Part shown: positions 40,726 to 43,195 of the stretch, piece by piece | How positions within the stretch are numbered: the stretch's first letter is position 1 | Layout of the letters: every line of letters begins with the position of its first letter | IMG/VR virus record: IMGVR_UViG_3300007535_000003 | Coordinates: 1 to 64,000 of that record | From: a virus | Reading direction: 5' to 3' (one strand) | Length of the DNA: 64,000 nucleotides | Position numbers and translations under genes: made by a program | The notes under the pieces: generated by a model | Seen by the model: the letters and a program-made list of their open reading frames with translations, nothing else | The model's database searches: none | Told to the model about the DNA's origin: nothing

Positions 40726-40756
40726 ACCACAAAAATGAAATTGTTAAAAATATAGA

Positions 40757-40835
40757 GAGATCTTGGAGCCCAATCAGGGCTATCGGCGACGACACGGTGG
40801 TAACCAGCCCATACAGCAGTCGTACTTCAGGTCTC
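40757..40835 (+). ncRNA. Folded 79-nt RNA element, unassigned
   Basis: GAGATCT (40,757-40,763) pairs with AGGTCTC (40,829-40,835). Inside lie AGCCC-AATCA-GGGCT and ACGAC-GTCGT enclosing GGT-GGTA-ACC. This gives a closed multi-branched fold of tRNA size, but no T-loop sequence (TTCRA) and no 7-nt anticodon loop are present. It stands between a six-codon frame with its own leader motif (MKLLKI, 40,735-40,755) and a tRNA-like gene. It could be a small RNA or a degenerate tRNA. Confidence 0.5.
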
Positions 40836-40845
40836 CCTAACTTAT

Positions 40846-40965
40846 GGTCCGTTCGTCTAGTGGTAGGACGCCGAGCTGTTAATACTTTATACATGCACTA
40901 GCTATGTTAGAGTATCAACCATGGTTTGCCCCACGGAAACGGAGGTTCGACTCCTCCACGGACTG
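40846..40965 (+). tRNA. tRNA-like gene with interrupted anticodon arm (Asn GUU if read directly)
   Basis: The acceptor GGTCCGT pairs perfectly with ACGGACT (40,958-40,964) with discriminator G. The D-arm is GTC-TAGTGGTAG-GAC and the T-arm GGAGG-TTCGACT-CCTCC. After CCGAG-CTGTTAA, where the Asn anticodon GTT would lie, an extra segment of about 50 nt forms a hairpin (GTTAATACTTTA with TTAGAGTATCAAC). CACGG then closes the anticodon stem with one A-A mismatch. Without removal of the insert a normal anticodon arm cannot form. Confidence 0.65.
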
Positions 40966-40970
40966 CTGTT

Positions 40971-41163
40971 AGCCATATAGCTCAAAAGTGTTACACTCAA
41001 GTTCCTAGGAATCGGCTGTAACCCCCAAGGATATGCAGAGGAGAATGGAACTTATTTGGACTTAAAATCCAATCCATTCTAGGCCACCTCACGCAGAGTC
41101 CGAGTAGCGGAAGAGCCCCTAATAAATTATAGGGAGATCTGGGTTCGAGTCCCAGTATGGCTA
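40971..41163 (+). tRNA. tRNA-like gene with a ~125-nt insertion in the D-arm
   Basis: The acceptor AGCCATA pairs perfectly with TATGGCT (41,156-41,162), discriminator A; T-arm CTGGG-TTCGAGT-CCCAG. The D-stem strands GCTC (40,980-40,983) and GAGC (41,113-41,116) are split by a structured insert with GTTACA/TGTAAC and GAATGGA/TCCATTC stems. The insert includes TTGGA-CTTAAAA-TCCAA, which looks like a Leu(UAA) anticodon arm. The outer tRNA's anticodon arm CCCTA-ATAAATTA-TAGGG has an eight-nucleotide loop, so its identity is unclear. Confidence 0.55.
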
Positions 41164-41630: not shown

Positions 41631-42074
41631 ATGTGGAAATCTAACTCAAAGCAAAGCAAAGACAAAATAAGTAAGGGCAGTTTAGTAATTATTGACATGC
41701 CCGACTTTATTGGAGAATATGTACCTTCAATAAGTAAGGTAGCGTGTAGCTACAAAGAAAAGATGCTACATTTCTCTAATGTTAGCAATGCTTTTGGTAG
41801 CTTATTTGGTGAAGAACACCATTTAATAGAAGTACCAAGAGCAGTCATACTCTATAACAAGACACATTTTCTTAAGAGTGTATTAGAGCTATCTGAAGCA
41901 TATAAAGAAGATAGCTTAGATTCTTTATTCTTTTACGGTCGTAAAATAGTACTACCAGTCCATGAGGGATACTTAATGCCGGTAAGTAAAATAAAGGATC
42001 CACACAAAAGAGGACTATGTTATAGAGAATGGGAAATGTTAAAGACTAAGGGATATAGTAACCTTATAACCTAA
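41631..42074 (+). CDS. Hypothetical protein upstream of the tmRNA gene
   Basis: A 147-residue protein (ISKGSLVIIDMPDFIGEYV) with mixed structure and a basic C-terminus. The stop lies just before the proposed acceptor piece of the tmRNA, which may therefore be cut out of the same transcript. No family. Confidence 0.5.
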   Translation: MWKSNSKQSKDKISKGSLVIIDMPDFIGEYVPSISKVACSYKEKMLHFSNVSNAFGSLFGEEHHLIEVPRAVILYNKTHFLKSVLELSEAYKEDSLDSLFFYGRKIVLPVHEGYLMPVSKIKDPHKRGLCYREWEMLKTKGYSNLIT

Positions 42075-42135
42075 CTTAACTAACAAACGATTTACTTACG
42101 CTGCTAGCTAGGGCTTTAGCGGACTCGGGTTCGAT

Positions 42136-42756
42136 CAAAAGGTCGAAGTTAAACTGGGTGAATTCAGGGAAACCTAAGTCACAATGATAAGGCAACCCTG
42201 AGCCAAGCCCTTAAGAGGGAAGGTGCAGAGACTACCTGAATACAGGCTAGAGCGCCCAGCACTTAAAAGTGAAGAGATAGTCCGATACTCCTGAGAAATT
42301 AGGAGAAGAAGCGAGATGTAAATTCTTGACGTTTTGATAAGGTTTCTTTTGTATATTTACCATTACGAGGTGTTATACTCTTCAATTCGTTAAGTATCAT
42401 ATCTATACGTCTACGCTTCTTGGGATGTCTGGAATTTATGTAAGATAGTACGTTTATACATTTAGGTAAATAAGTATACCTCAGCTCATAATTAGTAAAA
42501 TCACCTGATTTTTTAGTACAAATGAATCCATTATGACCTGTTTCAAGTTTAATAAATTTTTCTATTTCCACAAGTAGGTCATATTCGTTATTACTAAAAG
42601 AAATAACAGGTGATCTTTCGCAATTCTTATGTAAACGTAAAAATGTTATCGTGCCGTCAGCATCAAAGAAACCTGTAATATATTCCCAACCCATATTTTT
42701 ATTGAATATACGGACGCAGGTTTGAAATGTTACTGTTCCAGATGTTTTAACTATTG
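42136..42756 (+). mobile_element. Group I intron in the tmRNA T-loop
   Basis: The core has recognisable pairing elements: AATTCAGGGAAACC, CAACCCTGAGCC, GTGCAGAGACTA and AAGAGATAGTCC. P1 is TTCGAT (exon, 42,130-42,135) with GTCGAA (42,142-42,147), ending in the conserved U-G pair at the 5' splice site. The intron ends in G (42,756). Ligation restores a 7-nt T-loop, TTCGATT. Group I introns in tmRNA T-loops are known in some bacterial genomes; here the host gene is also permuted and viral. Confidence 0.88.
42299..42694 (-). CDS. LAGLIDADG homing endonuclease, antisense within the intron
   Basis: A 131-residue protein with one dodecapeptide motif (YITGFFDADGTI, residues 5-16), so it probably acts as a homodimer. 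A positively charged C-terminus (RHPKKRRRIDM) follows. It lies fully inside the group I intron, but on the opposite strand to the tmRNA. Its product would cut intronless tmRNA genes and drive spread of the intron. It needs its own minus-strand promoter, since all neighbouring transcription is plus. Confidence 0.85.
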   Translation of the reverse strand: MGWEYITGFFDADGTITFLRLHKNCERSPVISFSNNEYDLLVEIEKFIKLETGHNGFICTKKSGDFTNYELRYTYLPKCINVLSYINSRHPKKRRRIDMILNELKSITPRNGKYTKETLSKRQEFTSRFFS

Positions 42757-42789
42757 TCCCGAAGGCTCCACTTATCTAAACACTGTATT

Positions 42790-42930
42790 ATGAAAGCATT
42801 AAAACTACCACGGAAGGAGAAAAAGAGACGTAAGAAGGAGATACAAAAGTATCTAAGAAATGTTCTTAAGGTAGAAGCTAATACTAAAAACATCCGATTA
42901 TCGGAAATAGGATACAGGCTAGTAAAATAG
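42790..42930 (+). CDS. 46-residue basic protein between the tmRNA pieces
   Basis: The ATG at 42790 gives MKALKLPRKEKKRRKKEIQK and ends at a TAG at 42930. Over a third of the residues are Lys or Arg in the N-terminal half. It sits between the acceptor and coding parts of the tmRNA gene. It could be a small RNA-binding protein or a chance frame; the position is notable. Confidence 0.4.
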   Translation: MKALKLPRKEKKRRKKEIQKYLRNVLKVEANTKNIRLSEIGYRLVK

Positions 42931-42933
42931 CCC

Positions 42934-43026
42934 GTTGCCAATGATAGCAGTAGGGCAGGTGAGGAGAAAATATTATAATTTCACGGAGGTTGGTAACTCA
43001 GGTAGCCCCTGGGGTGTAACCTGCCC
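42934..43026 (+). ncRNA. Predicted pseudoknot between the tmRNA pieces
   Basis: GTTGCCAAT (42,934-42,942) pairs with GTTGGTAAC (42,989-42,997), and GGGCAGGT (42,953-42,960) pairs with ACCTGCCC (43,019-43,026); the two helices interleave. GTGA/TCAC and CAGG/CCTG form smaller stems. It ends 24 nt before the coding piece. It may guide processing of the permuted precursor. Confidence 0.55.
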
Positions 43027-43168
43027 TTTGTTTTCAACGTTAAAAATATGGGGCCTAATTGGTTTTGACGTTATGGTACCCAGTTAGCACGAAAGGTGTA
43101 AGTAATTTTTAAATGGCGAATCTGAAATGATGCAATTGCTTAGAGCAGCTGCTTAATCGGTGAGTCTT

Positions 43169-43195
43169 GGGGGACATTAATAGTCCCCCTTTTTC
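43169..43195 (+). terminator. Intrinsic terminator of the tmRNA coding piece
   Basis: GGGGGAC and GTCCCCC form a 7-bp stem with a 7-nt loop, followed by TTTTTCTTT. It closes the tmRNA transcript 13 nt after the tag stop codon, so the usual downstream pseudoknots PK2-PK4 are missing. Confidence 0.88.

Follow-up and report, generated by a model that had tools for sequence, protein, structure and literature searches.

A circularly permuted, two-piece tmRNA gene, with its acceptor half split in the T-loop by a group I intron, lies at positions 42094 to 43156 of the window, the 64-kb stretch that we analyzed of a 97,237-bp virus record. This identification, confirmed by the analyses below, is one made on sequence. 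The phage is a crassvirus, as its capsid, portal, and terminase are of crAss-like types (Pfam Crass_capsid, E value of 9e-190; PHROG and Pfam profiles). The acceptor half comes first, followed by a spacer and then the coding half (Table 1), and a single transcript is assumed. The mature 5' end of the acceptor half is inferred from the end of helix P2, and CCA is not encoded after A73.

Table 1. Features of the intron-containing permuted tmRNA locus
Feature	Position	Strand	Remarks and basis
Acceptor half, 5' exon	42094..42135	+	Pairs with coding half; ARAGORN after splicing; like layout in 18 other tmRNA genes
P2, 3' strand	42094-42120	+	Part of 5' exon
GGAC linker	42121-42124	+	Part of 5' exon
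T-stem, 5' strand TCGGG	42125-42129	+	Part of 5' exon
T-loop bases 1-6, TTCGAT	42130-42135	+	Part of 5' exon
Group I intron	42136..42756	+	621 nt; after T-loop base 6 (internucleotide position 7); RF00028 and junction check
Homing endonuclease ORF	42299..42694	-	131 aa, single LAGLIDADG motif; antisense to intron; PHROG and Pfam matches
Acceptor half, 3' exon	42757..42770	+	Begins with last T-loop base
T-stem, 3' strand CCCGA	42758-42762	+	Within 3' exon
Acceptor 3' strand AGGCTCC	42763-42769	+	Within 3' exon
Discriminator A73	42770	+	Within 3' exon
Spacer between tmRNA halves	42771..43049	+	279 nt; predicted to be removed
Lysine-rich ORF in spacer	42790..42930	+	46 aa; open frame only
Strong hairpin element in spacer	42951..43028	+	GGGCAGGT...ACCTGCCC; about -33 kcal/mol with flanks
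Coding half	43050..43156	+	Pairing, fold, ARAGORN after splicing and spacer trimming
Acceptor 5' strand GGGGCCT	43050-43056	+	In coding half
D-loop-like GGTTTTGACG	43061-43070	+	In coding half
P2, 5' strand	43070-43103	+	In coding half
Tag reading frame, GGC...TAA	43115..43156	+	Peptide GESEMMQLLRAAA, then stop; ARAGORN
Intrinsic-terminator-like hairpin and T run	43169..43194	+	Likely transcript end; sequence and fold

The hairpin in the spacer matched no Rfam family when matches were sought up to an E value of 5. About 1 kb upstream of the gene, two adjacent tRNA-like genes were observed at 40846-40965 and 40971-41163 (RF00005, 44.6 and 30.4 bits). They carry insertions of about 50 and 125 nt, respectively, too short for group I introns, and the larger one holds a perfect Leu(UAA)-like anticodon arm. 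A strong fold (about -28 kcal/mol) immediately upstream of this pair, at 40755-40840, likewise corresponds to no Rfam family.

The tRNA-like domain is complete. All 7 of the acceptor stem pairs proposed in the first-pass annotation are present, including G3-U70, with A73 in place, and the 5-bp T-stem and 7-base T-loop are restored across the junction of 42135 and 42757. Helix P2 is also present, but it had been drawn too short. Its pairings comprise ACTTACGC/GTGTAAGT, TGCTAGCT/AGTTAGCA, GGG/CCC, and CTTTAGC/GTTATGG, and because of this greater length the acceptor half starts at about 42094 and not at 42099 as originally placed. By prediction the acceptor piece measures about 56 nt, or 59 nt with CCA, shorter than the 70 nt or so first suggested. 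Duplex energy alone, ranked genome-wide, was uninformative for P2 since gapped duplexes are common, and a cognate/noncognate test was used instead. The P2 duplex, at -31.4 kcal/mol, was the best cognate match in both directions among 19 tmRNAs, and it was equaled in none of 2,000 shuffles.

The intron matched the group I model RF00028 with 97.3 bits (E value of 6.9e-24), and the conserved catalytic core, P3 to P9, is present at about 42150-42305. The start of the match at 42011 merely reflects the model's forced placement of P1/P2 upstream. A check of the junctions upheld the P1 described earlier, with a U-G pair marking the 5' splice site; P1 pairs UUCGAU with GGUCGAA, and G is the last base of the intron. 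Splicing at 42135/42757 would rebuild the T-loop UUCGAUU. The insertion point is T-loop subsite 7, one of the four (2, 3, 7, and 8) at which tmRNA introns are recorded in the 2025 tmRNA database (PMC11915505). The antisense ORF within the intron matched a PHROG endonuclease (E value of 1.5e-5) and, just under the gathering cutoff, Pfam LAGLIDADG_1 (E value of 4e-4; 21.6 bits versus a cutoff of 23.1). BLAST matches to Vibrio phages also proved to be group I introns, and the one examined sits in a ribonucleotide reductase gene; these were set aside.

The gene escapes standard tools. ARAGORN made no call on the raw DNA, none when the intron was removed but the spacer left whole, and none when the spacer was shortened but the intron left in. 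Once the intron was removed and at least 20 nt were cut from the 279-nt spacer, it called a permuted tmRNA with the tag GESEMMQLLRAAA. The program accepted a spacer of 259 nt but not one of 279 nt, so the window spacer is just over its limit. The Rfam tmRNA models RF00023 and RF04321 found nothing in the 97-kb record, and a permuted-tmRNA covariance search, which had been proposed as a check, thus gave no support. RF04321 similarly missed the permuted gene of crAss-like phage cr272_1, which ARAGORN does call, and for this reason we take its failure on the window as a limit of the model. A one-piece tmRNA gene elsewhere in the genome, which would have counted against the annotation, was not found in the 97-kb record. 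Nor is there a rival coding half nearby, since the sole further D-loop-like motif within 39.0 to 46.0 kb is the T-arm at the intron site itself.

We also searched with an architecture descriptor made up of the acceptor pairing, the T-stem, the D-loop motif, and the resume context. Its only matches in the scanned phage DNA were the window and loci that other evidence shows to be permuted tmRNA genes. A chance origin of the window architecture is excluded: the descriptor had no match in 9.9 Mb of shuffled sequence, ARAGORN made no call in 300 shuffles of the spliced, spacer-shortened form, and the P2 shuffles were equally empty.

Predicted permuted tmRNAs are common in Crassvirales and in other phages. 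ARAGORN identified them in crAss-like phages cr50_1, cr10_1, cr52_1, cr114_1, cr125_1, cr272_1, cr7_1, cr124_1, cr130_1, and cr131_1, in a Chryseobacterium phage, and in many other virus contigs; several of the crAss-like genes are labeled merely tmRNA in GenBank. The gene is not universal in crassviruses, as neither ARAGORN nor the descriptor found a tmRNA in 11 large and 4 smaller capsid-related IMG/VR crassvirus records. The spacer of the cr114_1 gene (L348) reads by eye, without the use of a tRNA finder, like a whole His-like tRNA with a GTG anticodon. A tRNA within a tmRNA spacer has been reported once, in a nominally archaeal gene (PMC11915505).

Compensatory changes, the absence of which was to have spoken against the annotation, are present in the relatives. 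The acceptor and T stems were aligned for 14 sequences, with MAFFT rows made from exons assembled by hand; the alignment consequently assumes the splice junctions. Double-sided changes occur at 7 of the 12 pairs, 99.4% of cells are paired, and the covariation score is 0.553; shuffles gave 0.116, and slid controls did not exceed 0.108. Two features, G3-U70 and A73, are invariant. Among gut crassviruses (L345-L349, L391-L397, and L400-L402), the predicted tags share a VTDYT/VDYT-like core that is unlike the host-type tag GENNYALAA, which suggests selection on a phage-specific tag. The window tag is unlike these VTDYT-type tags. Neighbor proteins used as bait retrieved no relatives, and the same gene was not found in any closer phage; the window gene therefore remains a single metagenome sequence. 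Of the 119 stretches of virus contigs that matched the pattern GGGTTCGAT-gap-GGTCGAA, not one was identified as a tmRNA intron, and stricter versions of the splice pattern, run on virus and genome collections, gave only matches without a convincing tmRNA.

The combination of permutation and intron recurs in at least five database phages, cr55_1, cr1_1, cr4_1, cr118_1, and cr6_1, at T-loop subsites 7, 8, and 3. In cr55_1 and cr1_1, the intron is at subsite 7 with an antisense HNH ORF, and the permuted tmRNA has the tag GNTMFVTDYSCVA; in cr4_1 and cr118_1, which likewise have antisense HNH ORFs, the intron is at subsite 8. ARAGORN found the permuted tmRNA in these four only when the intron was removed. 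The subsite 3 intron of cr6_1 is supported by the descriptor and by a near-identical intron-free contig, L416. ARAGORN called neither cr6_1, even after splicing, nor L416, and the position of the 3' splice site in cr6_1 is not certain to the base, as the exon is preceded by A and not G. None of the intron-bearing loci in the crAss-like records examined is annotated as a tmRNA. The core of the window intron is 72 to 73% identical to those of cr55_1 and cr1_1, which share its subsite, and 56 to 64% identical to the others; endonuclease type differs. In both cr55_1 and cr1_1, a match to the RAGATH-22 RNA family precedes the acceptor half by about 0.6 kb (L391, 813-1013; L392, 815-1015).

Empty sites provide further evidence. 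Contig L467, which lacks the intron, is nearly identical to cr55_1 in both halves of the tmRNA gene, so that the exon junction of the cr55_1 gene is known without assumption. The T-loop reads TTCGACT in L467 and TTCGAT|T in the intron allele of cr55_1, a difference that fits a need for U before the splice site. These intron-free sisters (L467 for cr55_1 and L416 for cr6_1) match the spliced exons and support exact joining of exons in the relatives. Taken with the covariation, the ARAGORN call, and the recurrence, they sustain the anatomy first proposed, a permuted two-piece tmRNA with a T-loop intron in a Bacteroidota phage.

Two other accounts of this anatomy must be considered. If only the T-arm and the intron were real, the intron residing in a tRNA-like relic, the coding half would be a chance match; the failure of the standard tmRNA covariance models and the unusual length of the spacer would be explained. 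We find this barely tenable, given the three empty shuffle controls and the same downstream coding half in all 18 of the other genes compared. Alternatively, the permuted order may have arisen in metagenome assembly from a one-piece, standard gene with an intron. Such genes do seem to exist: virus contig L412 has an apparent standard-order tmRNA with a T-loop intron at subsite 3, and cr128_1, of another crassvirus family, was dropped from the permuted set when its coding half was seen to lie upstream of its acceptor half. It appears to be a standard-order tmRNA with a subsite 3 intron, a tentative reading because ARAGORN makes no call even after splicing. Independent crassvirus genomes nonetheless share the permuted order, with and without introns, and we give an assembly error very little credence.

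It is harder to dismiss a real permuted gene with a real intron that no longer performs trans-translation and serves as a niche for intron homing or persists as a decayed relic. At least six crassviruses have introns with endonuclease ORFs in the tmRNA gene, with three subsites and more than one endonuclease type represented, and relatives of the window gene give no sign of selection on the window tag. Against this, the acceptor stem, T-stem, P2, G3-U70, linker, resume context, and stop are all intact in the window gene, the stems covary across relatives, and the conserved tag core in gut crassviruses speaks for selection acting on the function of the tag within this group. We regard loss of function as improbable, and we hold with considerable confidence that this is a working phage permuted tmRNA gene invaded by a mobile group I intron. 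Its anatomy, covariation, recurrence, and empty sites are established as far as sequence can do so; splicing, processing, charging, tagging, and homing are inferred.

The predicted working of such a gene draws on established tmRNA and group I intron biology, with no RNA data. A single transcript would start upstream of 42094 and end at the terminator near 43190. The intron would splice itself out to restore the T-loop, RNase P would cleave before G43050, and the spacer would be discarded. The acceptor 3' end would be trimmed to A42770, with CCA added by a host enzyme. The acceptor stem, of 7 bp, and P2, of more than 20 bp, would hold together the resulting two RNAs, of about 59 nt with CCA and about 107 to 140 nt. 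The assembled RNA could then be charged via G3-U70 by the alanyl-tRNA synthetase of the host, and host SmpB would carry it to stalled ribosomes. No SmpB was found in the record, and the gene would therefore depend on the host. Proteins stalled during infection would be released with the phage-specific tag GESEMMQLLRAAA. The endonuclease may spread the intron into empty T-loop sites, and homing would be indifferent to gene order because the target is the T-arm alone.

Each part of this gene has precedents. Bacterial permuted tmRNAs of Alphaproteobacteria, Cyanobacteria, and Betaproteobacteria (RF01849, RF01850, and RF01851, merged as RF04321) have the same order of acceptor half, spacer, and coding half, and share the tRNA-like domain and a P2 that holds the two pieces. 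The window gene differs in its T-loop intron, its longer spacer, its Bacteroidota-like resume context, and its lack of an RF04321 match. Two-piece tmRNAs are also published for phages, with 53 of 133 unique phage tmRNAs suggested to be of this type (PMC9004378). Phage Melnitz and other aquatic phages likewise bear a permuted tmRNA; theirs is of alphaproteobacterial ancestry, with no intron reported and a glutamine riboswitch instead (PMC9004378). Intron-form tmRNAs with the intron at T-loop position 7 resemble the window gene in insertion after base 6, U at -1, and a terminal G, and occasionally they have an endonuclease ORF (PMC11915505), but that class requires standard order, so the permuted window gene is a combined form.

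Closer to the window phage, cr50_1, cr10_1, cr52_1, cr114_1, cr272_1, and cr7_1, among others, belong to the same phage order and have the permuted layout, T-arm, linker, and a similar resume context; they lack the intron and have other tags. Both features occur together in cr55_1 and cr1_1 (Culoivirus), in which the locus lies left of a tRNA-Lys gene and is annotated only as an HNH endonuclease. They share the intron subsite and the antisense endonuclease ORF with the window gene, and differ in having HNH and not LAGLIDADG, a spacer of 88 to 89 nt, and a different tag.

The first-pass annotation had considered a viral gene with both features in a Bacteroidota phage to be new. A viral permuted tmRNA is not, given the published phage examples (PMC9004378) and the crAss-like records. 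The addition of an intron appears to be undescribed, each part being known separately, and it is not unique to the window phage. No description of a permuted tmRNA with an intron was found in the open-access literature, and the 2025 tmRNA database keeps standard, permuted, and intron genes as three separately counted forms (PMC11915505). Frequent group I introns have been reported in the protein genes of some crAss-like phages, without mention of tmRNA (PMC7886860 and PMC10136315).

The origin of the phage gene can be addressed only in part. One of 396 Bacteroidota genomes (G279; L330/L528) had a match to the permuted model above the cutoff, a count limited by the fact that this model misses crassvirus genes. 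The permuted tmRNA of that genome sits among phage-like replication genes, and a standard tmRNA is present on the same chromosome. The resume context TTTAAATGGC is common to the window, phage cr10_1, and a standard Bacteroidota host-type tmRNA (L327). These findings suggest that the phage gene descends from a Bacteroidota-type ancestor through a permutation of its own, a lead that no tree yet backs. A broader proposal, for which we would claim somewhat less than an even chance, is that the permuted tmRNAs of crassviruses and related Bacteroidota phages form an additional, Bacteroidota-type-derived lineage independent of the three bacterial ones. In that proposal, the T-arm would be a recurrent homing site for group I introns with different antisense endonucleases at three subsites, and splicing would gate ribosome rescue during infection.

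The permuted gene with an intron represents a fourth form of tmRNA gene beside the standard, permuted, and intron forms. Such genes go unseen because neither ARAGORN nor the Rfam models recognized one in unaltered DNA in any of the cases tested. The permuted tmRNA seems to be common in a phage order that ranks among the most abundant in the human gut, and since the gut crassvirus tag is conserved and distinct from that of the host, the idea that phages control ribosome rescue can be tested. The union of two-piece assembly and T-loop splicing in one gene would offer a natural test of the order in which splicing, RNase P cleavage, and assembly occur.
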